Source: an uncultured Tropicimonas sp. (GTDB lineage Bacteria > Pseudomonadota > Alphaproteobacteria > Rhodobacterales > Rhodobacteraceae). Taken from it: a stretch of DNA of 40,395 bases. Position numbers and translations under genes: made by a program. This document shows positions 7,232-40,395 of this stretch, piece by piece. Under the pieces are notes generated by a model. The model did not search any database, was not told the DNA's origin, and saw nothing but the letters and a program-made list of their open reading frames with translations. Numbering within the stretch: the first letter of the stretch is position 1; each line of letters opens with the position of its first letter. The stretch is taken from contig CANMIP010000038.1 in assembly GCA_947497945.1 (NCBI GenBank), positions 1 through 40,395 of the forward strand. Reading direction: 5' to 3'.

Positions 7232-7308
<77 letters not shown>

Positions 7309-8871: not shown

Positions 8872-8964
8872 GCTGGTTTCAGCCGCAGAACGAAGACAGG
8901 TTCTTTGCGGAGTTGCGGGATATTGGACATGACGGCGGCCAGGACGCAGCTTGCCGACCCTTTG

Positions 8965-9115
8965 CGACCACGTCGAAGTCGGAGGCGCCCGATCGAGCGG
9001 AACCTCCAGGCCCAAAAGCCGGACAGAAAATGGGGCGCTGACATCTCCTGCATCTGGACGGCACAGGGCGGGCTTCACGTCGCCGTCATGCTCGACCTCC
9101 ACACGCGGTGGGTGC
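8965..9115 (+). mobile_element. IS3-family transposase OrfB fragment (degenerate)
   Basis: About 50 codons in one frame read RPIERNLQAQKPDRKWGADI, SCIWTAQGGLHVAV and MLDLHTR, the start of the rve (DDE) integrase core of IS3-family OrfB. The first catalytic Asp is present in WGADI (near 9040). Homology stops at about 9115, and the second and third acidic residues, OrfA and terminal repeats are not seen. It is a dead remnant about 100 bp after the hydrolase gene. Confidence 0.8.
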
Positions 9116-11537: not shown

Positions 11538-12671
11538 ATGACGCGCCCGTTTCGCATCCTTTTCGATGCCCATACTTTTGACACTGGCTGGCAGGGGACA
11601 ACAACTTACCTTGCCGGCGTTGTGAACGCTCTGCCTGAAGCCATGGAACGACTAGCCCCCGGACAAAAAACGGAAATTTTCTGCGCCGCTGCGACAGAGA
11701 CGTTGATCTCCCAAGCCATCTCGGTTCCCTTCACCTTCGTTCCGATCCGTACGGGCTTTGTCGCACGGAACACGATCGACCTTCCGAAGGCGGCGGCCGA
11801 GATCGGCGCCGATCTTGTCGTGAGCCAATATGTCCGGCCATTTCGCAGCCCTTGCCCGACCCTCAGCGTGATCCATGACGTCCTGTTTCTGGACTATCCG
11901 GAGAGCTTCTCCTGGAGATATCGCAAGACCCGTGGCGCGCTGTTCGGTTGGTCCGCACGGCGCTCGACGAAGGTCGCGACTGTATCACGCTACTCGGCAG
12001 AGCGGATTGCGGCGCATTTCGGCATCCCGTCCGCTTCCATTCTTCTGACGCCGAACTCGGTCGATCCGGTCTTTGTCAACGCCGTCCGTCCGACAGCAAG
12101 CCAGACGCAACGTCCGCTGAAACTGCTTTCCGTGTCCCGACTTGAGCAACGCAAGCGGCATGAATGGGGTATTCGCGCGGTCGAGAACCTGAGCCAGGCG
12201 GGAATCTCTGCGGAATATCTGATAATAGGCGGGGGCGAAGGCCCATATGCGGACAGGCTGAAGGCGGAAGTCGCAGCCGCCAAGGCGGCCGGACTGTCGG
12301 TCGAAATCAAGGACAGCGTCCCCTTTGCAGACCTGGTCTCGGCTTATGCCAGTGCGGATCTTTTCCTCTGCCCGAGCGAATCTGAAGGGTTCGGCATCCC
12401 CGTGATCGAAGCGGCAGCAGCGGGAACACCTTGCGTGGTCTCGAACGGAGGCGCCCTGGCCGAGTTCGAAGGCGCCTTTGTCGGACAAAGCTTTGTCGCG
12501 GGCGACATGGAAGGCTTCCTTGCGGCCGTCCGCAAGGTCGCCGCCAACATAGACACATATCTCGAGCAAGCCGCCGCCAAACGCCGGGCGGTTGCCGATC
12601 GCTACCAATGGTCGAGCGTCGCGGATGTCTATGCGGCAACAATTATCGAGATGGAACACTCAGCCGCATGA
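11538..12671 (+). CDS. GT4-type glycosyltransferase
   Basis: 377 residues from ATG 11538, supported by GGGAAGGGCGGA just upstream; the frame extends to 11469 without support. It shows the GT-B fold of glycosyltransferase family 4: N-terminal ILFDAHTFDTGWQGTTTYLAGVV; sugar-nucleotide domain with LLSVSRLEQRKRHEWGIRA, LIIGGGEGPYADRL; and the EX7E-type site SESEGFGIPVIEAAAAGTP. It transfers an activated sugar in the cytoplasm during surface polysaccharide assembly. Its stop overlaps the start of the next gene (ATGA), so it is translationally coupled with the GT2 gene. Donor and acceptor are unknown. Confidence 0.93.
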   Translation: MTRPFRILFDAHTFDTGWQGTTTYLAGVVNALPEAMERLAPGQKTEIFCAAATETLISQAISVPFTFVPIRTGFVARNTIDLPKAAAEIGADLVVSQYVRPFRSPCPTLSVIHDVLFLDYPESFSWRYRKTRGALFGWSARRSTKVATVSRYSAERIAAHFGIPSASILLTPNSVDPVFVNAVRPTASQTQRPLKLLSVSRLEQRKRHEWGIRAVENLSQAGISAEYLIIGGGEGPYADRLKAEVAAAKAAGLSVEIKDSVPFADLVSAYASADLFLCPSESEGFGIPVIEAAAAGTPCVVSNGGALAEFEGAFVGQSFVAGDMEGFLAAVRKVAANIDTYLEQAAAKRRAVADRYQWSSVADVYAATIIEMEHSAA

Positions 12672-13513
12672 TTTCCATAATCACCGTTACTCATAATTCC
12701 TACGAACTTATGTCCGACTACGTGGACAGCTTCCTTGCCCATCATTCAAAAGGCAATGCGCTCGGGCAATTCGAATTCATCTTCATCGAGAATTCGGGAG
12801 ATGAAAGGATCGTCGAGCATACCGAGAAGCTCCAAAATGCCGGCTTTTCGGCTCGTTCCGAGCTCATGGAAAACCGGGGGTTCGGTGCGGGATGCAATCT
12901 GGGTGCGTCTCTGGCCACCGGCGATATCCTGGTCTTTGCGAATCCCGACTTGCAGTTCACGTCCGAGATTAGAGAACTCGAGGCCGCGTTCGGAACAACC
13001 AATTGGGGAACGGTTGCTCAGACCGGCGAGCGCGGAAGAATTTACGCCTTCGATCTCCTGCCTGAATATCGGAATATCCTGACCGAGCTGATGCGTATTT
13101 CCCGTTTCTGCCACAGGATAAAGGCGCTGCAAAAATACGCCTATCCAGTGGGGTCCTTCATGGTCGTTCCCCGCGCTTCCTTCGAGGCGTCTGGAGGATT
13201 CGATGAACGGTTCTTCCTGTATTACGAAGAAGCCGAACTCAGTCGCCGCCTGCACGCGGCACTTGGCCCGCCGATCTTCCTGCCGTCGGTCCATGTGCGG
13301 CATGAAACCTTCGGAACTCAAACCAGCTCCGACTTCACCTTCGAACAGGAGGCAATCAGCATGGTCAAATATGCCGACATTATCGGACGCCCGGAACTGG
13401 CACGGAAGCGCGTCCGGATGCTGCGGTTGCTGTCCTACCTGTCCGCGAAGGCGGGGGTACGGGCCGAATTTCATGAGCAAGCGATCGCTGGCAAGACGCG
13501 TAGTGCTGGGTAA
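12668..13513 (+). CDS. GT2-type glycosyltransferase (rhamnosyltransferase-like)
   Basis: 281 residues, ATG 12668-12670 overlapping the TGA of the GT4 gene. Opening ISIITVTHNSYEL and ENRGFGAGCNLGASLATGDILVFANPDLQF are typical of GT2 enzymes of the WbbL/rhamnosyltransferase group, with NPD in the DxD position. GGFDERFFLYYEEAELSRRL is the acceptor-side signature. It works with the neighbouring GT4 and sulfotransferase genes in making a sulfated surface glycan. No membrane segment is evident. Confidence 0.93.
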   Translation: MISIITVTHNSYELMSDYVDSFLAHHSKGNALGQFEFIFIENSGDERIVEHTEKLQNAGFSARSELMENRGFGAGCNLGASLATGDILVFANPDLQFTSEIRELEAAFGTTNWGTVAQTGERGRIYAFDLLPEYRNILTELMRISRFCHRIKALQKYAYPVGSFMVVPRASFEASGGFDERFFLYYEEAELSRRLHAALGPPIFLPSVHVRHETFGTQTSSDFTFEQEAISMVKYADIIGRPELARKRVRMLRLLSYLSAKAGVRAEFHEQAIAGKTRSAG

Positions 13514-13533
13514 GATGGCCGAAAAGTGTGCAC

Positions 13534-14451
13534 ATGTTTGAGATAGATTTCTTTGTCGTCGGCACGCAGAAAGGCGGCACGACGAGTCTTCATGACATAT
13601 TGAACGAACACCCGGACATATGCCTTCCGAGCATCAAGGAGACTCACTATTTCAGCCATTCGGACCGGCGCGAACGCGGCCCCGATTGGTATCGCAGCCA
13701 ATTTCCGGCGCGTGGTAGCTCCATTACTGGAGAAGTCGATCCGGAATACATGTTCTCCCCTCTTGCAGCGAAACGAATTTCCGAAGAAACTCCGGCAAGA
13801 AAAATCGCGTTTGTTCTGCGAAACCCGATCCGAAGAGCGTATTCGCAATTTCTCATGAGTGTGCGGCGCGGCTATGAAACACTTTCCTTTCGTGAAGCGC
13901 TTCTTCTCGAAAACGATCGCCTTTCTGGAGACCGGGCCAGTTTTGCCTATGATGAATGGAGCTATGCGTCGCGCAGCCTTTACTCGGCACAAATTGAGAG
14001 GTTCCTGAGCGAAATACCCCGGGTGGAGCCCTTGTTCCTGCGTTCGGAAACCCTGACCGCCGATGCAGACGATTCCGGCTACAACCAGTTTTGCCGGTTC
14101 GTCGGAACGACGCCCCGTCCGGATCTCCTGGCAAATGGAACGCGCAGCAATGTCGCAAGCCAGCCACGCCATGCCGGGATACGGGACTTTATCTATGCGA
14201 ATAACGGCCGTTCCGGCCTGAGACGCCAGATAACAGCACTACTGCCAACGTCTTTGAAAGTCAGGATTTTCAAGATGATCGACGGCTTGAACCAGCAACC
14301 CATTGCGCAGAAAGACGAGACGGCTTTCGATGATCTTCCCGAACCGGTGTTGGCAAGCATGGCGCGCGACATCGAGAGATGCGAGGACCTGACAGGGCTC
14401 GACCTGTCGTCCTGGCGCGAAGATTTGGAAACCCTTCAAGACAGGGCGTAA
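13534..14451 (+). CDS. sulfotransferase
   Basis: 305 residues from ATG 13534 (GTG 13528 possible). It has the PAPS-binding 5'-phosphosulfate loop GTQKGGTTSL (residues 10-19) and the 3'-phosphate motif RNPIRRAYSQF (Arg96, Ser104), plus EVDPEYMF between them. These features define the sulfotransferase family (Sulfotransfer_1/3), which moves sulfate from PAPS to a sugar hydroxyl. It follows the GT2 gene by 20 bp on the same strand, so the likely acceptor is the polysaccharide made here. No PAPS synthesis gene lies in the window. Confidence 0.9.
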   Translation: MFEIDFFVVGTQKGGTTSLHDILNEHPDICLPSIKETHYFSHSDRRERGPDWYRSQFPARGSSITGEVDPEYMFSPLAAKRISEETPARKIAFVLRNPIRRAYSQFLMSVRRGYETLSFREALLLENDRLSGDRASFAYDEWSYASRSLYSAQIERFLSEIPRVEPLFLRSETLTADADDSGYNQFCRFVGTTPRPDLLANGTRSNVASQPRHAGIRDFIYANNGRSGLRRQITALLPTSLKVRIFKMIDGLNQQPIAQKDETAFDDLPEPVLASMARDIERCEDLTGLDLSSWREDLETLQDRA

Positions 14452-14597
14452 AAAGGCACGGACAGGCGTTCCCCTGGACATTCGGCTCCAGCGGCAGATG
14501 TCCCATATTACGGATCAAACGGCCCGCGTTTTCCGATCTCAGCGCCGATGCGGCAGGCCAGACGCCGTTTTTCAGCGCCTGGGCTACCCGCCGACGT

Positions 14598-15017
14598 TCA
14601 AAGAAACACCGGACCCACGGTCAGCAGGATATTTGCGAACCTTCGGGTCTCGCCGCTGGCGATCACGACAAGAGTGTCGGACGATTTGGCCGACGCATAG
14701 AAGGCCTCACGGCTGACGAAATCCATCGGCGTGCCTTCGGGCAAGATGTCCACGTATTCGCCATGCACGGTGTTTTCGAAGTCATCGGGCCAGGCCATCA
14801 TGCTTGCCTGTTCGACATTGATCAACTTGCAGACCGCTGCCAGAATTTCGGCACTCGGTATCGTTCCGGGAACGAAATTCAGATAGACAATCTCGGCGTT
14901 CCGCGGCGCGTTGGTGACGAAGGAATAATTCGCATCAGACACGAGGATCTGTGCCTTGTGTCCGGCTTTGGCGAGCGCCGAAAGCAATTGCGGGTGAATG
15001 ATGTCAGATTTGATCAT
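14598..15017 (-). CDS. RbsD/FucU-type sugar mutarotase
   Basis: 139 residues from ATG 15015-15017 with AGGAGGCCAC upstream. Opening MIKSDIIHPQLLSALAKAGHKAQILVSDANYS is the RbsD/FucU signature (His near position 8 and DAN motif), and EILAAVCKLINVEQA and FYASAKSSDTLVVIASGETRRFANILLTVG complete the family. These enzymes interconvert anomers or ring forms of fucose or ribose. The His/Asp pattern looks more FucU-like, but substrate choice is inference. It is 47 bp downstream of the SDR gene on the same strand, so the two form an operon for a sugar entering through the adjacent ABC importer. Confidence 0.9.
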   Translation of the reverse strand: MIKSDIIHPQLLSALAKAGHKAQILVSDANYSFVTNAPRNAEIVYLNFVPGTIPSAEILAAVCKLINVEQASMMAWPDDFENTVHGEYVDILPEGTPMDFVSREAFYASAKSSDTLVVIASGETRRFANILLTVGPVFL

Positions 15018-15064
15018 GTGGCCTCCTTGCGAAGGCGCCACTCTCGCGGCGCCCTCGGACCCGA

Positions 15065-15829
15065 TTACATGCGGTAGATGCCGCCATTCACATCGATCGT
15101 GGCGCCAGTGATGAACCCGTCGAATTCGGACGCCAGGAAAGTGATTGTCCGGGCCACGTCTTCCGATGTGCCGGCCCGGCCGAGCGGGATCCCCTTGACG
15201 GTCTCGTCGGCGGATTCCTTGCTGGTGTGCCGGTCGTGGAAACGCGTTCCCAGGATCAGGCCGGGCGCCACGGCATTGACCCGAATGCCGAACTCTCCGA
15301 GTTCCGCCGCCAGCGACCGGGTCCAGGTCAGGACGGCGCCCTTGGTCATTGAGTAGGCCAGCGACCCCGAATGCCCGCCAGACCGCCCGGCCAACGACGC
15401 AAGGTTGACGACGCTCGCGCCAGCTTCAGCCTGCTTCAGATGTGGCAACGCGGCCTGGGTGACATGCAGCATGGTGGTCATGTTCACGTCGATCACGGTC
15501 TTCCAGAAATCGGGTTCGATCTCTCCAAGCCACTTGCGCGCGATGATGCCACCAACATTGTTGACGAGTACATCGATCCCGCCAAGGAACTCCGCGCCCT
15601 TGGCCACACAGGCCTCGGCCTCTTCCTTGCTCGTCAGATCGGCTGCACCAAAGGCTGCCCGCTGCCCAAGGGACTCTGCCAGTTCAACGAGTTTCTGCGG
15701 GCCTTCGCTGCCGCTGAAATAGTGAATGTAGATATCGCAACCGGCTTCAATCAGGCATTTGGCCGTGTGAAACCCGATGCCTTGCTCAGCACCGGTGATG
15801 AAGACCTTCTTGCCTTGCAATTTTTCCAT
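15065..15829 (-). CDS. SDR-family sugar/alcohol dehydrogenase
   Basis: 254 residues from ATG 15827-15829, with GGAGACGGAAA upstream. Classical SDR: cofactor loop VFITGAEQGIGF, NNVGG, active-site Ser in VVNLASLAGRSGG, then YSMTK (Tyr-x3-Lys), and IRVNAVAPGLILGTRF; C-terminus ATIDVNGGIYRM. No Asp after the second strand at the usual NAD position (YIHYFSG), so NADP may be preferred. In operon with the mutarotase gene, it probably oxidises the imported, desulfated sugar. The exact sugar is unknown. Confidence 0.9.
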   Translation of the reverse strand: MEKLQGKKVFITGAEQGIGFHTAKCLIEAGCDIYIHYFSGSEGPQKLVELAESLGQRAAFGAADLTSKEEAEACVAKGAEFLGGIDVLVNNVGGIIARKWLGEIEPDFWKTVIDVNMTTMLHVTQAALPHLKQAEAGASVVNLASLAGRSGGHSGSLAYSMTKGAVLTWTRSLAAELGEFGIRVNAVAPGLILGTRFHDRHTSKESADETVKGIPLGRAGTSEDVARTITFLASEFDGFITGATIDVNGGIYRM

Positions 15830-16177
15830 TTTCCGTCTCCTAGATTTGGCTGATGGCTCTCTCGCGTGAAACGATCTTTCGGATCCACGCCGTGAGCTCT
15901 CATCCCGTGATTTCCGCTTCCTATCCGGACCTTCTCTCGCGAGCGCATCGAGATTGGCGAGCAGATCCGCATGGCGCCTCGTTTGTCCAGATTTGTAAAT
16001 CTTCGGGCGCTTATATGGGCCATTGCCCGTGCCTTGCCCATACCTGCAGTGCCCGGTGCGACAACGACTCCGGATCGTCATGGCTGCGCAAGCCTTCGCC
16101 CGTTGCGGAACCAGGCCGTGCCCCGGCCATTGAGAAGCTGCGCGCCGTCAGGCAGCAGGCCGTCCAGGAGTTTCAGC
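15830..16177. other. 348-bp gap between the SDR and ABC ATPase genes
   Basis: No gene with a start signal. A minus-strand reading after the ATPase stop gives LDGLLPDGAQLLNGRGTA and WFRNGRRLAQ, protein-like but short and without a start, possibly a degraded gene end. A promoter for the SDR-mutarotase pair should lie here. Confidence 0.35.
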
Positions 16178-17245
16178 CTACAATCTGAGCCCGCTATCCT
16201 TGTCAAACAGCAACGCAACCGAAGGATCATATCCGAACCGGATGGTTTCGCCCTGGCGAATCCGCTGCCCGGACCGATCCTCGATGCGCAGTTCGACGGG
16301 CCCGTAGGAACAGGTCACCAGCGCATGCCCCCCCATCGGCTCAACCAGTTCGACCAGCGCCGAATGCGGTTGCTCGGGGGCAATTTCAATCTGTTCCGGA
16401 CGAATTCCGACAACCAGGGAGAGATCCTGAGCGGCCTTCTCTGCCGCATCCACCGCGAGACCGGGAACGTCATCCAATCCGTCAGGATGAACGAGTCCGT
16501 CCTCTCCTTTCGCCCCATTGATGAAGTTCATCTGCGGTGTTCCGATAAAACCGGCGACAAACAGGTTGTCGGGGGCATCGTAGAGAGCCATCGGCGAGCC
16601 GATCTGCTCCACCATCCCGTGATTCAGCACCACGATCTTGTCCGCCATCGTCATGGCCTCGGTCTGGTCATGGGTCACGTAGATCGAGGTCGACTCGAGC
16701 CGTTGGTGCAACAGCTTCACCTCCTTGCGCATGGCGGTACGCAGCTTCGCGTCGAGATTGGAGAGCGGCTCATCGAACAAGAAGACCTCGGGCTTGCGCA
16801 CGATCGCCCGCCCCATTGCAACGCGCTGGCGTTGACCGCCCGAGAGTGCCTTGGGCTTGCGCTCGAGCAACTCGCTCAACCCCAGGATCTCTGCCGCCTC
16901 CGCGACGGCCGCATCCCGTTCAGGCTTGGGAACTCCCTGCAATTCAAGCGAAAACGACATGTTCTCCCGCACGCTCATATGTGGATAGAGCGCATAGGAC
17001 TGGAACACCATCGCGATATCGCGATCCTTCGGCATCAGGTCGTTTACCACGCGATCACCGATCCGGATGGTTCCGCCGCTCGGATCCTCGAGCCCGGCAA
17101 TCATCCTCAGGATCGTCGACTTCCCGCTGCCGGAGGGTCCGACCAGCGCCACGAATTCACGATCCTCGATGTCGATCGAAACGTCCTTGATGACGTCCAG
17201 AGCACCGAATGACTTGGTGATATTCTCCAACGTGACCTGGGTCAT
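16178..17245 (-). CDS. ABC sugar importer ATP-binding protein (UgpC/MalK type)
   Basis: 355 residues, ATG 17243-17245. Walker [10 protein letters not shown] (36-44), Q-loop in [10 protein letters not shown], signature LSGGQ (134-138), Walker B VFLFDEP (154-160) and H-loop His192 in [13 protein letters not shown]-terminal TOBE/OB regulatory domain follows ([31 protein letters not shown]). This is the shared ATPase type of carbohydrate CUT1 importers. It is divergent from the regulator and transporter genes and is the natural partner of the two permeases and binding protein, although on the opposite strand. Confidence 0.95.
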
Positions 17246-17286
17246 GTCCGTCCTGCCTGTCGCCTGTCACCGGCAAGGATCGCCGC

Positions 17287-17333
17287 TTGACAAATTTCAT
17301 ATATGATGCATCGTAATTCCAGTATTGAAATTT
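17287..17333. promoter_or_regulatory. inverted-repeat operator and promoter region of the uptake locus
   Basis: AAATTTCA (17292-17299) and TGAAATTT (17326-17333) are perfect inverted arms with 26 bp between. The left arm overlaps TTGACA (17287-17292), a consensus -35 box for the plus strand. Between the arms lie two overlapping 8-bp palindromes, CATATATG (17298-17305) and GATGCATC (17305-17312). The site is in the 103-bp region between the divergent ATPase and regulator genes, so binding of the IclR-like regulator here could control both directions and itself. The -10 box is not clear. Confidence 0.6.
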
Positions 17334-17348
17334 ATCCAGAGGTATTTT

Positions 17349-18149
17349 GTGAACCCGAGCGACAGACTTCTTCGTGTGATGGAGTACCTGACCGAGGCCG
17401 GCCAGCAGCCGGTGAAACAGGTGGACCTCGCGCGCGACCTCGACATTTCACCGGCGACCCTGAACCGGATCATCAAGGTGTTGTCCGATCGCGGCTACTT
17501 GTTCCGGACCTCCGAGCGGTTCATCGTTCCCAATTTCCGCTTCACGCGGAACGTTCCGATGTCCGCAGCCTACCTGGAAGTGCTCAACGAGGTCATGGCC
17601 GAGATCACCGAGGCGAAGCAGGTCTTCTGTGAGGCCGTCGTCGTCACCGGTCAGGACCTGTTCTGGCATTCGCGCACCAACCTGCCGAATTCGCAGATCG
17701 AGATTCGCGCCAAGGCCGGCTTCCGCCGCCCCCTCTACGAGCTCGACGCGATGAGCCGTCTCTACATGGCCCGGCTCGGCCAGGACTATATCGATTACCA
17801 GTTCAACATCCGTACCTTCCACGACAACAGCCCCGCGCTCACGCCCTACTCAGCCGAAGAGGCGCGGGAGATCATCGCGGCCCATGCCGGACGCGATTTC
17901 GCCTTCGACCTCGAAGGCAACCGGGTCGGGCTGAGGCGCTTTGCATTGGTTGTCGAGGATCTGGACGGGAATTTCCTGCACTTCCTGACCATGGCCGAGG
18001 CCGCGCTGCCGGTGCCGGACATGGAGGCAAGGATCGAGAGCTATCACCGCATCCTGAAGGAGGCCCGTGGGCAACTAATGACGGTGATGGAGACGGAACG
18101 GCGCGAGGCGGAAGTCCTGCGCCAGGCCAGCAATGCGGGGGGAGGATAG
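17349..18149 (+). CDS. IclR-like transcriptional regulator
   Basis: 266 residues from GTG 17349, chosen because AGAGG stands six bases upstream; TTG 17325 is an in-frame alternative that would overlap the operator. N-terminal winged helix-turn-helix of IclR type (DRLLRVMEYLTEAGQQPVKQ then VDLARDLDISPATLNRIIKV, residues 5-45). The C-terminal part has an effector-domain pattern (AKAGFRRPLYELDAMSRLYMA, GRDFAFDLEGNRVGLRRFAL) with weaker match to classical IclR effector motifs. It is adjacent to the transporter genes and probably senses the imported sugar or a catabolite. Confidence 0.85.
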   Translation: MNPSDRLLRVMEYLTEAGQQPVKQVDLARDLDISPATLNRIIKVLSDRGYLFRTSERFIVPNFRFTRNVPMSAAYLEVLNEVMAEITEAKQVFCEAVVVTGQDLFWHSRTNLPNSQIEIRAKAGFRRPLYELDAMSRLYMARLGQDYIDYQFNIRTFHDNSPALTPYSAEEAREIIAAHAGRDFAFDLEGNRVGLRRFALVVEDLDGNFLHFLTMAEAALPVPDMEARIESYHRILKEARGQLMTVMETERREAEVLRQASNAGGG

Positions 18150-18182
18150 ACCCATGGCCCCCGCGACCACGGAGGAGAAGTG

Positions 18183-19454
18183 ATGAAAACCCAATATGCG
18201 CGCCGGCTCGCAACGGCAGCGATGGTAAGCGTGACGACACTGGTCCCGGCCTATGCCGCAGATGTCGATGTGCTGCTCTTCGGCATGCCCTATACCAAGG
18301 GACTGGCGGCGCTGGAGGCGGATTTCGAAGCCGAGACGGGGCTGACCGCCAATATCGAAGTGGTCGGGCAGAACGTCTTCGAGAACCGCATCACCCTCTC
18401 TTTCACCGGCAAGACCGGCGACATCGATGTCGTCCACACCCCGGTGATCCAGGTGCAACGCTGGGTTGAAGCAGGCTGGCTCCAACCGGTAACCGACGGC
18501 GTCGCCGGCATGAACGACAAGGATGACATCCTCGCCGGCCCGCTCGATGCCTACCTGGTCAATGGCGATTACTGGGCCCTGCCCTTCTTTGCCGAGACCG
18601 GCATGATGTCCTATCGCAAAGACGTGCTGGAAGCGGCCGGATTCGACGCCCCGCCCGCCACCTGGGAAGAGGTGCTGGCCTTTGCCAAAGCCGCCAAGAG
18701 CGACGACATGGCCGGCTTTGCCATGCGCGCAGCCCCCGGCCAGGGTTTCAACATGTTTGTCTTCCCGATGATCATGCGCGGCTATGGCGGCAAGTTCTTC
18801 GCCGATTACCCGACCGACCTGACCCCAGCGATCAACTCGCCCGAGACGCTTGAAGCGCTCAACCTTTATATTGAGCTGATCAACGAATACGGCCCCGCCG
18901 GTGGTGGCAATTTCAACTTCTCGGAAATCGCCGCGGCCAGCCAGGCCGGGCATCTCGCGATGTTCGTCGACGGCACCTCGATCGTGGCCCAATCGCTCGA
19001 CCCGGCCAAGAGCCAGGTCCTTGAGCACATGGCCATCGCGCCAGTGCCCGCCGGCCCGGCCGGTCGCTCGCCGACCATCGCCGTGCACGGTCTTGGCGTC
19101 CCCGCCGATGCGCCGAACCCGGAGGCAAGCTTCAAGTTCATCGAATGGGCGACCAGCCCGGAGACGCTGACGAAGATCGCCATCGCCAACGCCTATCCGG
19201 ACTTCACCCGCGCCTCGGTTGCTGCCGATGCGGAGGTGCTGGCCAAGTATGAGGCGATCAACCCCGACTTCCTCGACCTGCGCGTGCAGATGCTCAACGA
19301 CGCCATCGGACATTACCGGCCGCTGCTGCCGCAATGGCCCGAGATTGGCGCCTCGGTGGGCGAGCATATCAACGCCGCGCTGAACGGGCTTGAGACGCCG
19401 GAAGAAGCGCTCGAGGCCGCAGAGGCCGAAATGATTGAAATCATGGCCGAATAG
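18183..19454 (+). CDS. ABC sugar-binding protein
   Basis: 423 residues from ATG 18183; GGAGGAGAAG upstream, with GTG 18180 one codon earlier. Signal peptide to AYA (about residue 25), then mature ADVDVLLFGMP. Fold and motifs of family-1 solute-binding proteins for sugars: GLAALEADFEAETGL, GDIDVVHTP, DYWALPFFAETGMMSYRKDVLEAAG, PPATWEEVLAFAK. It captures a carbohydrate in the periplasm for the permeases encoded downstream. It is 33 bp after the regulator gene. A strong hairpin after its stop may keep its transcript abundant relative to the permeases. Confidence 0.94.
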   Translation: MKTQYARRLATAAMVSVTTLVPAYAADVDVLLFGMPYTKGLAALEADFEAETGLTANIEVVGQNVFENRITLSFTGKTGDIDVVHTPVIQVQRWVEAGWLQPVTDGVAGMNDKDDILAGPLDAYLVNGDYWALPFFAETGMMSYRKDVLEAAGFDAPPATWEEVLAFAKAAKSDDMAGFAMRAAPGQGFNMFVFPMIMRGYGGKFFADYPTDLTPAINSPETLEALNLYIELINEYGPAGGGNFNFSEIAAASQAGHLAMFVDGTSIVAQSLDPAKSQVLEHMAIAPVPAGPAGRSPTIAVHGLGVPADAPNPEASFKFIEWATSPETLTKIAIANAYPDFTRASVAADAEVLAKYEAINPDFLDLRVQMLNDAIGHYRPLLPQWPEIGASVGEHINAALNGLETPEEALEAAEAEMIEIMAE

Positions 19455-19464
19455 GCCAGATCCC

Positions 19465-19499
19465 GGCGCCGACGGTTATCTCCCGAGACCGTCGGCGCC
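19465..19499 (+). promoter_or_regulatory. strong hairpin between binding-protein and permease genes
   Basis: GGCGCCGACGGT (19465-19476) and ACCGTCGGCGCC (19488-19499) form a perfect 12-bp stem with an 11-nt loop, starting 10 bases after the binding-protein stop. There is no T tract, so it is better read as an mRNA-stabilising 3' structure or weak attenuator. Such elements are known to raise binding protein over permease levels in sugar-transport operons. Confidence 0.85.
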
Positions 19500-19527
19500 A
19501 CCCTTCACTCCAGGCAGGTCTTTCCAG

Positions 19528-20415
19528 ATGTCACAGGTCATGGGTGTGCAGCCCGTCCTCCAGCGATCCTACCGGATGATGCTGATGCCGGCAGTGCTGG
19601 CGGTGCTGATTTTCGCCGTGCTGCCACTTCTGGGCATGTTCGTGCTCGCCTTCACCAGCTTCGATCTGGTGAAAGGCTGGGACACCGGCTTCACGCTGAA
19701 GAATTTCGTCAAGCTCACCGATGACAAGCGTTTCATCGCCTCGATCTGGGTGATGCTCTCGCTCAGTGTGTTCGGCGTGATCGCCCAGGTCGCCGCCGGA
19801 ACGGCCATCGCCGTCGGGCTTGAAAAGATCATCCCACGCTGGCGATTCCTGCGCGGCATCTTCGTGGTGCCTTTCGTGGTGCCGCATGTGGCCGTCGCCC
19901 TGGTCTGGCTGTCGCTCTTCACGCCGACACTTTCGCCGATCAACGCCTTTTTCGACCTCTTCGGCATCACCGTCCCGGCCTTGCTCACGACGAGATGGGG
20001 CGCGATCTCGGCCATCGTCATTGCCGATACCTGGGCAAGCTTCCCCTTCGTGATGCTGCTGATCCTGGCCGCACTTCAGGGCATCTCCTCGGATCTCGAC
20101 GAGGCCGCATCCATCGATGGCGCGAGCAAGATCCAGGTCTTCTGGCGCATCACCCTGCCGCTGCTGAAACCGGCGTTGCTCATGGTTGCGCTCTTCCGTT
20201 TCATCGAGACGATCAAGCATTTCCCGTTGATCTACGTGATGACCAATGGCGGGCCCGGCCGTGCCACCCAGGCCACGAATTATTACGCCTTCATCCAGAC
20301 CTTCCAGAATTCCAAGGTCTCCTACGGCGCCTCCATCGCCGTCTTCCTCTTCATTTTCGCCGCCGCCATCAGCTTCTGGGTGGCCCGCATGAACGCGAGG
20401 ATCTCCGATGCGTAA
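19528..20415 (+). CDS. ABC sugar permease 1
   Basis: 295 residues from ATG 19528 (MSQVMGVQP). Six or so membrane helices, first PAVLAVLIFAVLPLLGMFVLAF. The ATPase-contact EAA motif is EAASIDGASKIQVFWRITLPLLKP. The MalF/UgpA-type pattern NGGPGRATQATNYYAFIQTF is present. Its end overlaps the next permease gene by 8 bases. It forms the membrane channel with permease 2, driven by the ATPase encoded at 16178-17245. Confidence 0.94.
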   Translation: MSQVMGVQPVLQRSYRMMLMPAVLAVLIFAVLPLLGMFVLAFTSFDLVKGWDTGFTLKNFVKLTDDKRFIASIWVMLSLSVFGVIAQVAAGTAIAVGLEKIIPRWRFLRGIFVVPFVVPHVAVALVWLSLFTPTLSPINAFFDLFGITVPALLTTRWGAISAIVIADTWASFPFVMLLILAALQGISSDLDEAASIDGASKIQVFWRITLPLLKPALLMVALFRFIETIKHFPLIYVMTNGGPGRATQATNYYAFIQTFQNSKVSYGASIAVFLFIFAAAISFWVARMNARISDA

Positions 20416-21244
20416 GCCCAAGGGAAAACACGACTTCTCCTGGAAACAGGCGGCCGGCGTGACGATGATGTTGGCGCTGCTCTTCTTCGCGCTGCTGCCG
20501 ATCATCTGGTCCTTCATCCTCGCGCTGCGGCCGGAAAACCGACTGTTCGAGCCGATCTGGGAATCGCCCACCGCGCTCACGCTGGGCAATATTCGCAACC
20601 TCGCCGGCACGGGCTTTCCGCATGCGCTCTTCAACTCCTTCGTGACGGCAACCGTCTCGACAATCCTGGCCGTGATCATCGGCGTGCCGGGCGGGTTCGC
20701 GCTGGCCAAGGGGCGTTCCTCGCGCAAGTTCGTCGCCTCCTGGGCGCTCCTGCTGCTGCGCATGGCGCCGCCCGTGGGGTTCGTGATCCCGCTCTTCATC
20801 CTCTACCTGAATGTCGGTCTCCTCGACACATGGGTCGGGCTGATCGGCGCCTATATGGTGCTGACCCTGCCGCTCGTGGTCTGGTCCTCCTGGACATCGC
20901 TGAGCCAGATCCCGGACGAGTTGATCGAAGCTGCCCTTCTCGACGGCGCGACCATGGCGCAGGCCCTGCGTCGCGTAGTGATCCCCGCCGCGCGCCCCGG
21001 CCTCGTGGCCACCGCCGTGCTCGCCTTCCTTCTGACCTGGAACGATTTCTTCTTCGCCCTCGTCATCACCCGCTCCGACACCGTGACCGCCCCGGTCGCG
21101 ATCATGAACTTCGTCTCCTATGCCAGCGTCGACTGGGGAAGCATTGCCATCGCGTCCATCCTCCTGACATTGCCGACGGTGCCGGTCATCGTCTTCGCCA
21201 ACAAGTATATCGTCCAGTCCATGGGCGGAGCCGTGAAAGGTTAG
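20408..21244 (+). CDS. ABC sugar permease 2
   Basis: 278 residues, ATG 20408-20410 overlapping the end of permease 1 (ATGCGTAA). Membrane helices from residue 14; MalG/UgpE type, with the EAA loop reading EAALLDGATMAQALRRVVIPAARPG and TWNDFFFALVIT near the end. It completes the importer. The sulfatase gene starts 6 bp after its stop. Confidence 0.94.
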   Translation: MRKPKGKHDFSWKQAAGVTMMLALLFFALLPIIWSFILALRPENRLFEPIWESPTALTLGNIRNLAGTGFPHALFNSFVTATVSTILAVIIGVPGGFALAKGRSSRKFVASWALLLLRMAPPVGFVIPLFILYLNVGLLDTWVGLIGAYMVLTLPLVVWSSWTSLSQIPDELIEAALLDGATMAQALRRVVIPAARPGLVATAVLAFLLTWNDFFFALVITRSDTVTAPVAIMNFVSYASVDWGSIAIASILLTLPTVPVIVFANKYIVQSMGGAVKG

Positions 21245-21250
21245 ACCCTG

Positions 21251-22762
21251 ATGAGCAAGCGTCCCAATATCGTCTTCATCATCACCGACCAACAGCGATA
21301 CGACACGATTGCCGCCCTCGGCTTCGATCACATGATCACGCCCAATCTCGACAGGCTGGCCGGCAACGGCGTGGCCTTCGAGAAGATGTATATCCCCGCC
21401 CCCTCCTGCGCGCCCTCGCGCGCGGCCCTCTTTACGGCAACCTACCCGCACACCAACGGCGTGTTCCGCAATGACGAGGAATGGTCCTATTGCTGGGTCA
21501 AGGATCTGGCCGAGGCGGGCTATCACACGGTCAATATCGGCAAGATGCACACTTGGCCGGTGGAAGGCGCCTTCGGCTTTCACGAGCGTCACGTGACCGA
21601 GAACAAGGACCGGGATCACACCGACCTGCCCTTCTATCTCGACAATTGGGACAAGGGCTATTTCGTGCGCGGCAAGGAGAAGCCCTCCCGCGTGACCCAG
21701 CGTTCCCGACAGGGCTATGACGACCTACTCGGTGCCTGGGTCTGGGAGGACGAGGCGATCCTGCACCCGGATGTCTTCGTGCCACAGATGGCGAAATGGT
21801 GGATCGACCGTTACCCGGGCGATGAACCCTTCTTCCTCCAGGTCGGCATCCCCGGCCCGCACCCGCCCTATGACCCAACGCGGGAATACCTGGAGAAATA
21901 CCGCGGCCGTACACTGCCCGAGCCGATCCCGGCCGACGATATCGACGCACAACCCGCCGCCTACCAGAAGCTGCGCCAGCACCATCTCGAGGACGATGCC
22001 GACGGCATCGTCCACCTGCCGAACCCGACGCCGGAACAGGCGCTCCGCCAGCGGATGCATTACTACGCCAATGTCACGATGATCGACGACCAGGTCGGCG
22101 AGATACTCGACGCGCTGGAACGGCGCGACGTGCTGGAGGAGACAGTGGTGATCTTCACCTCCGATCACGGCGACTGCCTGACCGATCACGGCCATTCGCA
22201 GAAATGGAACATGTATGAGAGCACCGTCCACGTGCCCGCCATCGTCGCCTGGCCGGGCCGGTTCGACGGCGGCAAGCGGGTGGCCGAACTGGTCAACCTG
22301 TTCGATTTCGGCCCGACCATTCTCGAGCTGGCCGGCGTTCCTGTCCCCGACTGGATGGAGGCGCAATCCCTGATGCCGCTGATGCGAGGCGAGGCCCAGG
22401 ATCGGCCACGCGTCTTCTGCGAACATTCCAACGACGCATTGCTGGAAGGCACCCGCATGGTCACGATGGTGCGCGAGGGCGATTTCAAGCTGGTGCATTT
22501 CGTGGACAGCGAGGAAGGTCAACTCTTCAACCTGGCCGCCGACCCGCAAGAGCTCGACAATCTATGGGACGATCCCGCCCATGCGGAGACGAAGCGCCGC
22601 CTCACGGACGAGATCCTCAAGTGGCGCACTGAAAGCGGCATCCGGAGCCAGGGCTATCCGCTTGCCTGTATGCGCGGCGCAATGTCGATGATGTCCCCGC
22701 CCGGCCGGCCGGCCCGCGGTCAGCACCGCGAGAACTCCCGAGGCCCCCGCAACTGGGGCTGA
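21251..22762 (+). CDS. sulfatase (formylglycine-type), probably cytoplasmic
   Basis: 503 residues from ATG 21251, 6 bp after permease 2. Opening NIVFIITDQQRYDT (metal-ligand Asp13; the second position is Gln as in choline-sulfatase-like members), then the formylglycine site CAPSR (53-57; CxPxR with Cys53), GKMHTW (Lys98, His100), SDHGD (304-308) and Lys318. It removes sulfate from a sulfate ester after Cys53 is converted to formylglycine by a maturase not in this window. No signal peptide is visible, and it is co-transcribed with an importer, so it likely acts inside the cell on a small sulfated sugar brought in by the ABC system. The last 30 residues are Arg/Pro-rich. Confidence 0.93.
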   Translation: MSKRPNIVFIITDQQRYDTIAALGFDHMITPNLDRLAGNGVAFEKMYIPAPSCAPSRAALFTATYPHTNGVFRNDEEWSYCWVKDLAEAGYHTVNIGKMHTWPVEGAFGFHERHVTENKDRDHTDLPFYLDNWDKGYFVRGKEKPSRVTQRSRQGYDDLLGAWVWEDEAILHPDVFVPQMAKWWIDRYPGDEPFFLQVGIPGPHPPYDPTREYLEKYRGRTLPEPIPADDIDAQPAAYQKLRQHHLEDDADGIVHLPNPTPEQALRQRMHYYANVTMIDDQVGEILDALERRDVLEETVVIFTSDHGDCLTDHGHSQKWNMYESTVHVPAIVAWPGRFDGGKRVAELVNLFDFGPTILELAGVPVPDWMEAQSLMPLMRGEAQDRPRVFCEHSNDALLEGTRMVTMVREGDFKLVHFVDSEEGQLFNLAADPQELDNLWDDPAHAETKRRLTDEILKWRTESGIRSQGYPLACMRGAMSMMSPPGRPARGQHRENSRGPRNWG

Positions 22763-22924
22763 GCTTGCCGGCCGAGACGGTCAGCCGGGGCTTCCGCGCA
22801 TCGCGGGCACTTCCTGTTCGCGTCCTGTGAACGCCGCGCCAGGTGCAAATTCACCTTGAGGACGGACGCAACCGCGCCTTGCGTCGGAACTCGCGAGCGC
22901 TCCGGGAAGCCCCCCCGGGACGCG

Positions 22925-23350
22925 ACCCGGCCCGACCACAATTCACATCCCTTAGGTCCCGGCGCTCGTCCGAAAGCCGTTCCGAATGGGCTTTTGCCTC
23001 CGACCTCTCCAGGTTTCCTTGCTCCGCGATCTCTCCCGGGAGCGCCTGCTGCACAACCACGGCAATGCGGGAAGCAGTTCCGCGGAAATCGATCGCGGCG
23101 CATCCCCGAGCCAGCGGAGGACCTCTGCGCCGTCTTGTTCCAGCAAGGTCTGGACATAGACCCTTTCAGCGCCATCCAGAGGCCACGCGAGACTTGAGCG
23201 GGTCAACAAGCCGCTTGCCGAACGGTTCACGCTATCGAGCCAAAGAGGCTCCGTCAGTCCAAGCCCGACAGCGAGGGACCCAGAGCGGCAGATCGCCGAA
23301 GCCCCAACCCGCATCTCTGTCATGAACCGCTTCTCAGCCCTCGGAAGAGC
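22925..23350 (-). pseudogene. flavodoxin/FNR-type reductase, C-terminal fragment with frameshift
   Basis: On the minus strand, a frame reads SGLLTRSSLAWPLDGAERVY and VQTLLEQDGAEVLRWLGD, which I recognise as the NADPH-binding end of sulfite-reductase/flavodoxin-reductase modules (usual continuation: GA-x-IYVCGS). The frame then shifts near 23095, and an adjacent frame gives AAIDFRGTASRIAVVVQQAL and later RRDLRDVN, close to the normal C-terminus (RYRRDVY). No start or flavodoxin domain remains. The surrounding 22763-23465 holds nothing else I can support. Recognition is by eye only. Confidence 0.5.
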
Positions 23351-23465
23351 TGGCAACAATCGTGATGGACGACCCCGTCAGGGAAATGGGGACGTTCCCT
23401 CAATCGACGCGCTGTTCACCATGGCCCGCTCGGCACCGCCGGTGTTCGGTTGCCATGCGCTAGGT

Positions 23466-24668
23466 TCAAGCGAGTGCTTGCGTTGACCCACCCGGAACGC
23501 GCGGCGATCGAGAGGACAGGACGCGCGCCCGGTACAGCCCCCCAACAGCGAACCCGAACATGAGGGTTACACCGTCCAGAGCACTCTTGTTCAACGGACC
23601 AGAGATCACAACCGTGCTCAGCAACAGGATCAACGACATCGTGGTCGCCAATCTCGCGACGAGAATTGCATCCGGGCCGGTCTTTCGGGAAAGCAGGGTA
23701 AAGGGAGACAGCATGAAGTAGACAAACAGGCCCACACCGACGAGTCCGAGCTTCACCAGAACCGTGAAATAGCCGTTATGGGCAAAGGGCAGATCGGTCA
23801 CTTCGCCCTGTCCGAACAGGATGGAACTTCCCAGCTCGATGCTCTGGCCGAAACCACCGCCGAAGATCTGCCCGAAGAAGCCCGAGTCCTGCCAGGTCGT
23901 GTAGGCCCGGTAGGCTTCGAATCCACGCCAATTGGCATACATCATGACCCGATCCGAGCCGTCCTCGAAGGAAATCTCGGCCAGGCTGTTTCTGATGCTT
24001 CCCCAAAAGGTTTCCGCCCCAAACTCGTATTCCGGAAGAAACGGAAAGATGACAGCGGCCAGGGACACCGCCACGACGAGCCACAGCGTCATTCGCGTTT
24101 TCGACATATAGACCCCGCGCGCGCCAAGATACGCGATTGCCATGACCAGCAATGCCGTCCGGGACTGAGACAAGGCGACCATCAGGAATGTCGGCGACAC
24201 AAGAAGCCAGCGAACCGGCATGCTCCCCGGGTAATATTTCAGGATAAAGGGCGTGAGCGCGAGTGCGACGAATGAGAGATGGCGGGCTCTTTCACCGCCA
24301 ACGCCCAGAATCTCCCGCGTCGCCTGGTCGATTGCAATCACCATCGCGGCCCAGGCGACGGCCTTGATCCAGTGTCCGGCCAGTGGGGTGTAATATCCGA
24401 TTAGCGCGCCGGCCTGGACCACAAGCAGCATCTTGAGAAAGTACCACCCATCCTTCCCCAAAGCTCCCAGATTGGCGAATTCTCCAAAGGCAACCCCCTG
24501 AAGAATAAAAATAAAAACAGGAACAGCCGGTTTCAGAGCGAAAGGTGACACCATTCCACGCCGCAGCAGCAGGATGAATCCGATCCATGGCACAAGCAGC
24601 GCCGAGTAATAGAGGCTGGGCATGAAGGAGAACACGACCAGCATCAGCGCAAGCTGCTTGTGAAACAT
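23466..24668 (-). CDS. O-antigen-ligase/polymerase-type membrane protein
   Basis: 400 residues from ATG 24666-24668 (TTG 24701 is an in-frame alternative). About ten hydrophobic helices (LALMLVVFSFMPSLYYSALL, MLLVVQAGALIGYY, TLWLVVAVSLAAVIFPFL and others) with a large periplasmic loop (GSDRVMMYANWRGFEAYRAY, FFGQIFGGGFGQSIELGS, FAHNGYFTVLVKLGLVG). The loop motif 'HNGYF...KLG' is typical of Wzy/WaaL/ExoQ-like proteins, which polymerise or ligate surface glycan. It is downstream of the flippase on the same strand, 299 bp away. Polymerase versus ligase cannot be decided. Confidence 0.85.
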   Translation of the reverse strand: MFHKQLALMLVVFSFMPSLYYSALLVPWIGFILLLRRGMVSPFALKPAVPVFIFILQGVAFGEFANLGALGKDGWYFLKMLLVVQAGALIGYYTPLAGHWIKAVAWAAMVIAIDQATREILGVGGERARHLSFVALALTPFILKYYPGSMPVRWLLVSPTFLMVALSQSRTALLVMAIAYLGARGVYMSKTRMTLWLVVAVSLAAVIFPFLPEYEFGAETFWGSIRNSLAEISFEDGSDRVMMYANWRGFEAYRAYTTWQDSGFFGQIFGGGFGQSIELGSSILFGQGEVTDLPFAHNGYFTVLVKLGLVGVGLFVYFMLSPFTLLSRKTGPDAILVARLATTMSLILLLSTVVISGPLNKSALDGVTLMFGFAVGGLYRARVLSSRSPRVPGGSTQALA

Positions 24669-24967
24669 CAGAAAGACCCCCCCTCTTGCTGGCCGGGCCA
24701 AAACAATGTCGCCACGGCACCGGAAGACAATACAGTCACGCCAATCACATTCGCCATCAGGACAGATGAATCCGCCGAGACATCTCCCGACCGGATGTCA
24801 CGACCGCCAGAACCTTCGGCGCCCGCGAGACCGAAGACTCGCCAGATAGCTCCAACATGAAAATACCCAAAGCCTTCAGATGAGCAACCGCCCCCGGCGC
24901 GCCCCGATCCGTCGAGACCGGCCCCCGAGCAATCTTCGACAATCGCTGTTGCAACGCACGCCCCCAA

Positions 24968-26239
24968 CTAGTTGACAATCGACGGGTAGAAACCCAGCCG
25001 ACGTTTCGTGAGCATCATGGCCACGAATTTCCCAGCCGCCGTCCCGATCGACACGCCAATTGCGGCGCCATAGATCCCGGCGCGGGGTGCCAGGATCAGT
25101 ATGACAATCAGCGTCACGATTGCCATCGTCGCGACCGCGATCAGATTTCCGCGCTCATGGCCGCACATTGCCAGGAACATCCCCCCCGACCCCATGGCCA
25201 GGGACAGCAATTGACCGACAATCATGATCAGCATCGGCAGATAGGCGGTATCGGAATATGCGACGCCGAAGGTCAGTTCGATCAGCGGCTGCCCGAACAG
25301 CACGAAAATCGCAGCCAGCGGCAACGCGGTCAGCGTGGAAAGCCGCGCCGACTGCCGCGCCAGCTTGCGCAGGTCCTCGACGCCGTCCTTCTTGTGCGCG
25401 GCGACGATATAGGGGCCAAGAATTGCATTCACGAACATGAGCGGGAAGGCGACCAGCTGCGCGCCCCGCTCCGCCACTCTCAGATAGGCCAACTCTTCCG
25501 TTTGCCCCAATCCCCCAAGAAGCAATGCCGCCGTCTGCGTGCCGAGCGTCGCCATTCCGCCGATCAGCGTGAAGGAAATGAACGAAACACCCCAGGCCCT
25601 CAGATCCGCGCGGGAGGCAAGCCGGATTCCGGGTGCCGCCGGAGAGTGGCGGGTCAGAAACGCGAGCCCCAGCAGCGCCGCGACGAAATAGGACGCAAGA
25701 TGCAGCCGCAGTACGACGGTTGCTTCCGTTCGTCCGGTCTGATGCAGAAGCACGATGCCCGATACGAGCAAGAGCGGAACGATGACCTGCGGCAAGACTT
25801 CCGACAGGACCGGCGCGCCCAGGCCTTTCAGCCCGCCCTTTCCGATCCCGACAATCCCCATTGCGAAGGGAAGGAAGCACACGACGGCCAGAAGCGGCGC
25901 CATGTCGGATGCAACCAGGCTCGACCTGGAGGCGCTCCACAGGACCAGGCCCACGAGGCTCGAGGCCACAATGACCCAGAGCGCCGCCGTGGTCAGGATT
26001 GCCCTGAACCGGTCGGTGTCCCTGTCCTGCACGGATTGCGCAACCTCGCGCGTCATCAACAATGGCAAGCCGATCGCAATGGGAATTGCCGCGACCGTGG
26101 CGATGGCAATGGCAAAGGAGTAGCGACCGAAATCAGCGACACTCATCCACCGCGCAAGCAGCACGTTTGCCGTAATGCTGAAGACGAGACCGAACCCATA
26201 GACTCCGGAAACCGAAAAAAAAGCTCTGGTTATGTTCAT
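24968..26239 (-). CDS. Wzx-type polysaccharide flippase (MOP superfamily)
   Basis: 423 residues, ATG 26237-26239. About twelve membrane helices. Start MNITRAFFSVSGVYGFGLVFSI, then ANVLLARWMSVADFGRYSFA, is the standard opening of polysaccharide-transport proteins. LGTQTAALLLGGLGQTEELAYLRVAERG and LFGQPLIELTFGVAYSD are further family features. It would move lipid-linked sugar units across the inner membrane, for assembly by the neighbouring polymerase-like protein using units made by the glycosyltransferases at 11.5-13.5 kb. Confidence 0.93.
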   Translation of the reverse strand: MNITRAFFSVSGVYGFGLVFSITANVLLARWMSVADFGRYSFAIAIATVAAIPIAIGLPLLMTREVAQSVQDRDTDRFRAILTTAALWVIVASSLVGLVLWSASRSSLVASDMAPLLAVVCFLPFAMGIVGIGKGGLKGLGAPVLSEVLPQVIVPLLLVSGIVLLHQTGRTEATVVLRLHLASYFVAALLGLAFLTRHSPAAPGIRLASRADLRAWGVSFISFTLIGGMATLGTQTAALLLGGLGQTEELAYLRVAERGAQLVAFPLMFVNAILGPYIVAAHKKDGVEDLRKLARQSARLSTLTALPLAAIFVLFGQPLIELTFGVAYSDTAYLPMLIMIVGQLLSLAMGSGGMFLAMCGHERGNLIAVATMAIVTLIVILILAPRAGIYGAAIGVSIGTAAGKFVAMMLTKRRLGFYPSIVN

Positions 26240-26506: not shown

Positions 26507-26710
26507 GACACCAAACAGCACTTTCAGGATCAGGCAGGTCTGGATCGCGGCATCACTGAAGCCTGGTTGGCGACCTCGCCTGCCGGTCGGTGGTGGCCGC
26601 CCAGTCATCTCGGGTTCGAACCAAATCGACAGCGATCCGCGCCGCTTCAGCGCTGTGTTGCAAGACGACCAGTTGGAGGTCTTGTACCTTGCAGGGGACC
26701 AACTGCTCAT
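26507..26710 (-). mobile_element. IS5-family transposase N-terminal fragment
   Basis: Minus-strand codons read RYKTSNWSSCNTALKRRGSL, SIWFEPEMTG, PTGRRGRQPGFSDAAIQTCL and ILKVLFGV, the N-terminal signature of IS5-family transposases. After LFGV the match ends; a short piece around 26380-26440 (EGQKSAL region) may be a later transposase segment after an internal deletion. No DDE residues and no intact ends remain. The interrupted palindrome GGATTCAC-GCA-GTGAATCC near 26733 could be an old element end. Confidence 0.8.
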
Positions 26711-26788
26711 GCCTCCCAGCTATCATGCTGGATTCACGCAGTGAATCCCACAAGCCGATTTATGCAACAAAGCCGTTTCGGCGCCAAT

Positions 26789-40268: not shown

Positions 40269-40395
40269 GTGAGAAGGGCGGTGAGAAAGTCGTCCACGGT
40301 AGCGGTGGGATGAGCCTGCTGCGGGCGGCGTAAAAGTCGTCCACCTTTGCCCTTCCTGATTTGACGGAGGGAGGGCGGGAGGATCTTCACCCGCT

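Follow-up and report, generated by a model that had tools for sequence, protein, structure and literature searches.

A probable mosaic of glycan-sulfation and sulfatase-uptake genes between insertion-sequence scraps in an uncultured Tropicimonas

Results and discussion

In the draft genome of an uncultured Tropicimonas sp. (5.79 Mb in 115 contigs; estimated as 100% complete with 0.37% contamination), contig C38 carries a set of sulfatase and sugar-uptake genes nested between two groups of genes for a surface glycan that is probably sulfated. We analysed this entire contig, 40,395 bases, hereafter the window. We interpret the segment at 8.87–26.77 kb as a mosaic bounded by insertion sequences (IS), whose modules have separate histories and have come together in a Tropicimonas/Aliiruegeria-type roseobacter, and we put the probability of this reading at about 0.7. 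The scraps of insertion sequence that punctuate the segment suggest that it was patched together by rearrangement and does not work as one system. Homologies, gene order, strands, the IS scraps and the independent occurrence of the modules were all seen directly in the comparisons described below. The nearest named relatives of the sulfatase (83–91% identity) belong to marine Rhodobacterales, namely a Tropicimonas metagenome-assembled genome, Tropicimonas sp. IMCC6043 and Aliiruegeria lutimaris.

Genes were identified by Pfam and NCBIfam scans of the open reading frames (ORFs) in the window (Table 1), and those named in a first-pass annotation of this DNA were recovered in the order given there. 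From 11.5 kb onward the + strand encodes GT4- and GT2-type glycosyltransferases and a sulfotransferase; these are followed on the – strand (14.6–17.2 kb) by an RbsD/FucU-family protein, a short-chain dehydrogenase (SDR) and a MalK-type ATPase, on the + strand (17.3–22.8 kb) by an IclR/MarR-type regulator, a binding protein, two permeases and the sulfatase, and again on the – strand (23.5–26.2 kb) by a Wzy-type polymerase and a Wzx-type flippase. Open frames are full-length for all genes of the glycan and uptake modules.

Table 1. Features of the window, ordered by position.
Feature	Position	Strand	Evidence
IS3-family transposase scrap (residues 181–250), left island edge	8906–9112	+	tblastn, Sagittula IS3 transposase 51%/70 aa
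Beta-helix protein, not shown to be lyase	9314–10846	-	Pfam Beta_helix 20.3 bits, below cut-off 25.9
GT4 glycosyltransferase (glycan half B)	11538–12671	+	Pfam Glycos_transf_1; 54–57% to plasmid operon GT4
GT2 glycosyltransferase (glycan half B)	12668–13513	+	Pfam Glycos_transf_2; 50–56% to plasmid operon GT2
PAPS-type carbohydrate sulfotransferase (glycan half B)	13528–14451	+	Sulfotransfer_3, Sulfotransfer_1; 48–50% to plasmid operon sulfotransferase
RbsD/FucU-family protein, possible sugar mutarotase	14598–15017	-	Pfam RbsD_FucU 94.3 bits (cut-off 25); 80% in congener G008
Short-chain dehydrogenase	15065–15829	-	Pfam adh_short_C2 187.6 bits; 86% in congener G008
MalK/UgpC-type ABC ATPase	16178–17245	-	ABC_tran, OB_MalK, TOBE_2; UgpC subfamily model 454 bits (cut-off 432)
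IclR/MarR-type regulator	17325–18149	+	HTH_IclR 25.7 bits (cut-off 22); 69–71% in Aliiruegeria, Tropicimonas cassettes
Sugar-type solute-binding protein	18180–19454	+	SBP_bac_1; best solved relative 4rya, ABC binding protein named for sorbitol
ABC permease 1	19435–20415	+	BPD_transp_1; true start probably ~90–105 bp further in (relatives compared)
ABC permease 2	20408–21244	+	BPD_transp_1
S1-type sulfatase	21251–22762	+	Sulfatase 169 bits, SGSH_C 98 bits; CAPSR motif; best solved relative 7oz8
IS5-family scrap (C-terminal codons 278–304 + following bases), sulfatase/Wzy junction	23271–23402	+	blastn, tblastn to IS5 elements
Wzy/O-antigen-ligase-type polymerase (glycan half A)	23466–24701	-	Wzy_C 32.7 bits (cut-off 31.7); 34–38% to plasmid gene
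Wzx-type flippase (glycan half A)	24968–26239	-	Polysacc_synt_3 36.3 bits (over cut-off), Polysacc_synt; 42–44% to plasmid gene
IS5-family scrap (codons 1–68 + terminal repeat), right island edge, tip 26774	26507–26774	-	DDE_Tnp_1_5 37.4 bits

A rare glycan operon of plasmid type

In a protein search across 72,556 plasmid records, three plasmids proved to carry relatives of both the sulfotransferase (48–50%) and the flippase (41–43%); they belong to Loktanella salsilacus (NZ_CP072992), Pseudosulfitobacter pseudonitzschiae (CP069018) and Sphingobium baderi (NZ_CP128178). GT4 was detected on the same three plasmid records and on none other at E 1e-70, and the remaining plasmids reached at most 39% identity to the sulfotransferase among the matches listed (15 of 20 records). 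The annotated block on these plasmids is contiguous and lies on one strand, in the order flippase, two acyltransferases, O-antigen ligase family protein, GT4-type and GT2-type glycosyltransferases, and sulfotransferase; the five glycan proteins of the window pair one to one with their plasmid counterparts over most of each protein. The earlier view of the two glycosyltransferases, sulfotransferase, flippase and polymerase as usual parts of one locus agrees with this order, and the plasmids also answer the call of the first-pass annotation for strains whose glycan genes are contiguous and free of uptake genes, as the latter gave no match in the three plasmid regions (29–30 kb each) at 1e-5. Conversely, the acyltransferases had no match in the window at 1e-3.

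The glycan operon with its sulfotransferase is rare. With the own genome counted in each case, the flippase was found in two of 394 genomes of the family (at 1e-40), the sulfotransferase in one of 295 genomes (at 1e-60) and GT4 in one of 385 genomes of the class (at 1e-80), while none of eight congeners matched the flippase at 1e-10. The other flippase-positive genome of the family (G310) encodes a flippase 41% and a sulfotransferase relative 31% identical to those of the window, and a second flippase in the Tropicimonas genome itself, on contig C26, is 31% identical to that of the window.

Flippase, polymerase and glycosyltransferases together mark a Wzx/Wzy-dependent glycan locus whose priming enzyme would be encoded off-contig. 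Three matches to Bac_transf, the priming sugar-phosphate transferase family, lie on other contigs and none on this one; the glycan genes could therefore work with one of these candidates. The ORF scan, which was confined to the window, showed neither Wza nor Wzc, the proteins of export and chain length. Solved relatives of the sulfotransferase include heparan sulfate 3-O-sulfotransferases, and a sugar acceptor thus fits this enzyme. We infer that GT4 and GT2 would extend a lipid-linked repeat begun by the priming enzyme, that the sulfotransferase would add sulfate from 3'-phosphoadenosine 5'-phosphosulfate (PAPS), and that Wzx would flip the repeat for polymerization by Wzy.

A widely distributed uptake cassette and its probably cytoplasmic sulfatase

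The binding protein, two permeases and MalK-type ATPase with its regulatory domain (OB_MalK, TOBE_2) make up an ATP-binding cassette (ABC) importer of the CUT1 sugar type, the ATPase gene being divergent from the rest. At 1e-80 the sulfatase occurs in seven of 60 relatives (own genome included), among them three of eight congeners, and we collected 43 sulfatase loci from named genomes, including Rhodobacterales, Granulosicoccaceae, Rhizobiales, Salinicola, Microbacterium and Paenibacillus. In 21 of these 43 loci the sulfatase comes with orthologues of the binding protein and of both permeases, each at 55% identity or more. The ATPase that matches best in these 21 is divergent, as in the window, in four loci and co-directional in 14, while the other three have none or one below 44%. 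The cassette aligns as a single block in Tropicimonas sp. IMCC6043 (window 16191–22756, 79%) and in Aliiruegeria lutimaris (window 16514–22756, 78%).

None of the 43 loci contains any of the five glycan families, whether by tblastn at 1e-6 or by profiles built from window and plasmid sequences (at 1e-3), and the profiles were also negative in another 14 loci, a set that in part duplicates contigs already among the 43. The uptake cassette thus occurs elsewhere, as the first-pass annotation had proposed to check, and its distribution indicates that it is mobile and found without glycan genes. These loci extend at most 10 kb to each side, several being shorter, which leaves room for more distant linkage between glycan genes and cassette; on a Neorhizobium plasmid, polysaccharide export genes lie ~7 kb from its sulfatase.

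The SDR and RbsD/FucU genes were considered as standard parts of this cassette and rejected as such, neither having a match of at least 40% in the 43 loci; the SDR adjoining the Martelella ATPase is merely 30% identical to that of the window. In congener G008 the two genes are paired on another contig, apart from the cassette (86% and 80% identity, respectively). The label of mutarotase given earlier to the RbsD/FucU protein holds at the level of the family, but the protein scores far below the NCBIfam equivalog cut-offs for L-fucose mutarotase (33 versus 141 bits) and D-ribose pyranase (32.4 versus 93). Similarly, the import and breakdown set described as complete does comprise importer, regulator, sulfatase, SDR and RbsD/FucU protein, but the scan of genes at 11.5–26.2 kb revealed neither a glycoside hydrolase nor a kinase or aldolase.

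Formylglycine (S1) sulfatases are marked by a C-x-P-S-R motif. The window enzyme has this signature in the form CAPSR together with a Sulfatase domain, and its translation has no signal peptide evident by eye; a maturation enzyme is encoded in the genome. The best solved relative of the sulfatase, 7oz8 (E 5.3e-65), is BT1918, listed in PMC10154620 as a 3S-GlcNAc sulfatase of family S1_46. This likeness makes a sugar substrate plausible for the window enzyme, yet BT1918 is too remote to give its family or substrate.

The genome contains 18 sulfatase matches including that of the window, one of them with in-frame stops. No match to the formylglycine-generating enzyme (FGE) was found in the genome; a single anaerobic-type sulfatase maturase (anSME) is encoded on contig C4, 59% identical to that of Aliiruegeria and scoring 493.5 bits against TIGR03942 (cut-off 349). 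Enzymes of the anSME type are oxygen-sensitive, and this lone copy may have to mature all 18 sulfatase matches in a marine roseobacter. An FGE-like gene is present in 22 of the 43 sister loci and an anSME-like one in two, which leaves 19 with neither. Gene content and homology support the import of a small sulfated compound that would be desulfated within the cell, separately from glycan synthesis: a small sulfated sugar, or a molecule like it, would enter through the importer, and its sulfate would be released as a sulfur source by the sulfatase, an enzyme that probably resides in the cytoplasm and owes its activation to the anSME, with the desulfated compound left for catabolism.

Plasmid-borne relatives of the sulfatase (50–65% identity) lie near tripartite tricarboxylate transporter genes in Falsirhodobacter, Martelella sp. 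NC18 and Paracoccus (L076, L079, L081), which suggests one substrate class served by unlike transporters. On a plasmid of the archaeon Halosolutus (L080), a 52% identical sulfatase adjoins an FGE gene in a neighbourhood that also holds genes for galactonate dehydratase and SDR, and in one further locus (L013, on G021:C72) the sulfatase match has one in-frame TAG.

Island edges and the origin of the nesting

When 16 relative loci were compared, homology outside the cassette was found to end at 8837 and to restart at 26774. Directly inside the left stop lies the IS3 scrap (86.5% DNA identity over 96 bp, with a sub-threshold rve match of 19.8 versus 32.6 bits), and on the right the terminal repeat of the IS5 scrap, 82% identical in DNA to the end of a Paracoccus IS5 element, ends at 26774, the very base where Aliiruegeria homology begins. 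The IS3 and IS5 scraps previously noted on the outer sides are real; a further IS5 scrap, inside the island and unmentioned there, lies at the sulfatase/Wzy junction, so that the Wzy-Wzx half is flanked on both sides by IS5-family scraps in opposite orientation. A tRNA-Met gene (7232–7308) was considered as the integration site but is not supported, the tRNA and the following hydrolase gene being adjacent in congeners and the island starting after the hydrolase.

In the window, GT4, GT2 and sulfotransferase run rightward and Wzx and Wzy leftward, with the uptake genes between them and the operon cut between Wzy and GT4. Because the two halves converge while the homologous operon runs one way, plain insertion is insufficient and at least one inversion is required. 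We counted inversions for the 12 starting orders of three blocks: each needs at least one, and only two are resolved by one, the other ten needing two or three. In one of the two the cassette begins beside the sulfotransferase end of the operon, and in the other it begins between GT4 and Wzy and only the GT4-GT2-sulfotransferase block is inverted.

We propose that the island combines three modules: a plasmid-type operon (Wzx-AcT-AcT-Wzy-GT4-GT2-sulfotransferase, where AcT is acyltransferase) that would have lost both acyltransferases and been cut between Wzy and GT4, the SDR-RbsD pair, and a mobile cassette of ATPase, regulator, binding protein, two permeases and sulfatase. The cassette may have been acquired beside or within the operon; the present order would then have arisen through one or more inversions, one of them breaking at the Wzy/GT4 junction, with probable help from IS5-type elements. 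This role for IS elements, like the lack of functional coupling between the modules, is inferred from the arrangement and its relatives.

Several observations weigh against this proposal or blur its details. The relatives of the glycan genes are just 34–57% identical, and their immediate ancestor has thus not been seen. Acquisition beside the operon and insertion into it cost equally, one inversion each. The N-terminal IS5 scrap is closer to the element of locus L124 than to that of L123 (76 versus 59%), while the C-terminal scrap ranks them the other way (52 versus 70%, over 25–27 aa), so the two probably derive from separate elements; the candidate explanation of one IS5 element split by the inversion is weakened by these differing ranks, the C-terminal scrap being just 25–27 aa long. 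No inverted-repeat pair with arms of at least 18 nt, of the kind that inversion by homologous recombination would leave behind, joins 10.85–11.54 and 22.76–23.47 kb; ten such pairs were listed in the window and none links the presumed breakpoints. Nor was an empty site found in nine genomes of the genus, own included. Finally, the flanking blocks are themselves scattered in congeners, adjacent in no congener stretch examined, and an island formed in a single event is accordingly not proven.

The entire contig (2028–40262) in fact looks mosaic, the island flanks consisting of blocks that are apart in congeners: those at 2.0–6.9, 7.1–8.8, 26.8–34.9, 35.3–36.6 and 37.8–40.3 kb fall on different congener contigs or in different places, several of these contigs being short. 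The last 128 bases (40268–40395) match other contigs of the genome and congener contig ends, as a dispersed repeat would. To the right of the island, a DUF1611 protein and an alanine-racemase-like protein are encoded in overlapping frames (31007–33324) in a stretch conserved in G003 and G005.

The beta-helix gene

The gene at the left of the island, earlier called beta-helix lyase-like, is present, but its Beta_helix match is sub-threshold (20.3 versus 25.9 bits) and lyase activity is not shown. A phage origin was considered and found little support, with no match in phages or plasmids at 1e-8 and one weak PHROG match of 21 bits. The glycan locus of G310 (L101:12450–15599) contains a 1049-residue frame with a weak Phage_depo_C match; by tblastn, a 64-residue stretch of this frame is 37.5% identical to the beta-helix protein of the window, and phmmer with that protein did not recover the frame at 1e-3.

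Alternative explanations

The first-pass annotation had left two possibilities: the sulfated glycan is recaptured, or one cassette landed within the other by chance. In the former, the cell would sulfate a surface glycan and the nested importer and sulfatase would recover sulfated pieces, its own or a neighbour's. The genes of both modules are full-length and adjacent, the beta-helix protein adjoins GT4 and has a partly similar frame in the glycan locus of G310, itself the bearer of a flippase relative, and a sugar substrate is plausible for an enzyme whose best solved relative is a 3S-GlcNAc sulfatase. But the modules are together nowhere else examined (none of 43 cassette loci, three plasmid regions or the 20 kb region of G310), many genomes carry the cassette at loci without glycan genes, no above-threshold depolymerase occurs among the genes scanned, and phmmer at 1e-3 does not link the beta-helix protein with the G310 frame. 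We consider such a functional unit quite unlikely, and rate a shade lower still the idea that selection keeps the nesting because costly PAPS-derived sulfate is recycled from the matrix glycan of the cell's own or a neighbouring biofilm. Recapture thus finds little support, and chance combination is favoured because relatives show both contiguous glycan genes alone and the cassette elsewhere. The chance insertion, in its plain form with no further rearrangement, would draw on the contiguity of the glycan genes in relatives and the apparent mobility of the cassette, but with converging halves on opposite strands, an operon that is one-directional and 12 of 12 starting orders needing inversion, strand order rules it out unless the ancestral operon of this lineage was already partly inverted, and we give it hardly any credence.

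More serious, though still improbable, is that the glycan halves arrived separately, for example with Wzy-Wzx carried between IS5-type elements, and never formed an intact operon locally. The IS5-family scraps on either side of Wzy-Wzx (23271–23402 and 26507–26774) and the make-up of the whole contig from blocks found apart in congeners would fit such a history; against it, a single plasmid operon holds counterparts of all five glycan genes and nothing signals a second source, and the scraps appear to be of unlike subtype. An assembly chimera joining unlinked segments of the genome is a concern in any draft of 115 contigs, as repeats at junctions are typical sites of false joins and the last 128 bases match other contigs; here, however, the IS scraps inside the segment are decayed remnants of small size, a repeat search confined to the window showed no long repeat at its internal junctions, and estimated completeness and contamination are 100% and 0.37%, making a chimera very improbable. 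A patchwork in which modules of separate history were combined and then rearranged remains our preferred reading.

If so, rearranged accessory DNA can yield an apparent two-way locus that seems both to sulfate and to desulfate, and a pathway reading of such neighbourhoods would probably mislead here. The analysis also names two systems, each testable alone: a rare operon of plasmid type whose glycan is probably sulfated, and a widely distributed uptake cassette whose sulfatase probably acts in the cytoplasm.

Comparison with known systems

With limited search terms (combined sulfatase/sulfotransferase loci, sulfated exopolysaccharide clusters, cytoplasmic sulfatases with ABC importers), the open-access library searched yielded no such locus by title. 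Reportedly, rhamnose-operon plasmids were described by Michael et al. in 2016. The operons of Pseudosulfitobacter and Sphingobium lie near rfbABCD. Polysaccharide genes are placed on roseobacter biofilm plasmids in PMC10090131, and the likeness to the rhamnose-operon plasmids lies in the mobility of surface-polysaccharide genes; no rhamnose operon was recognised among the window genes scanned, and we do not claim membership of that group. The glycan genes are closest to the plasmid operon described above, sharing five homologous genes in the same order inside each half. On the plasmids that operon forms an unbroken one-strand block, in which two acyltransferases separate Wzx from Wzy, and further glycan genes lie in the vicinity, whereas in the window it is split into converging halves with eight uptake-side genes between them and acyltransferases not found.

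The uptake cassette in turn resembles those of Tropicimonas sp. IMCC6043 (L031), Aliiruegeria lutimaris (L053) and Yoonia maricola (L048), in all of which the ATPase is divergent from regulator, binding protein, two permeases and sulfatase. These stretches are without the five glycan genes and relatives of the SDR and RbsD, the Tropicimonas contig ending 0.75 kb past the ATPase, and in the other two a maturation gene adjoins the ATPase, of anSME type in Aliiruegeria and of FGE type in Yoonia.

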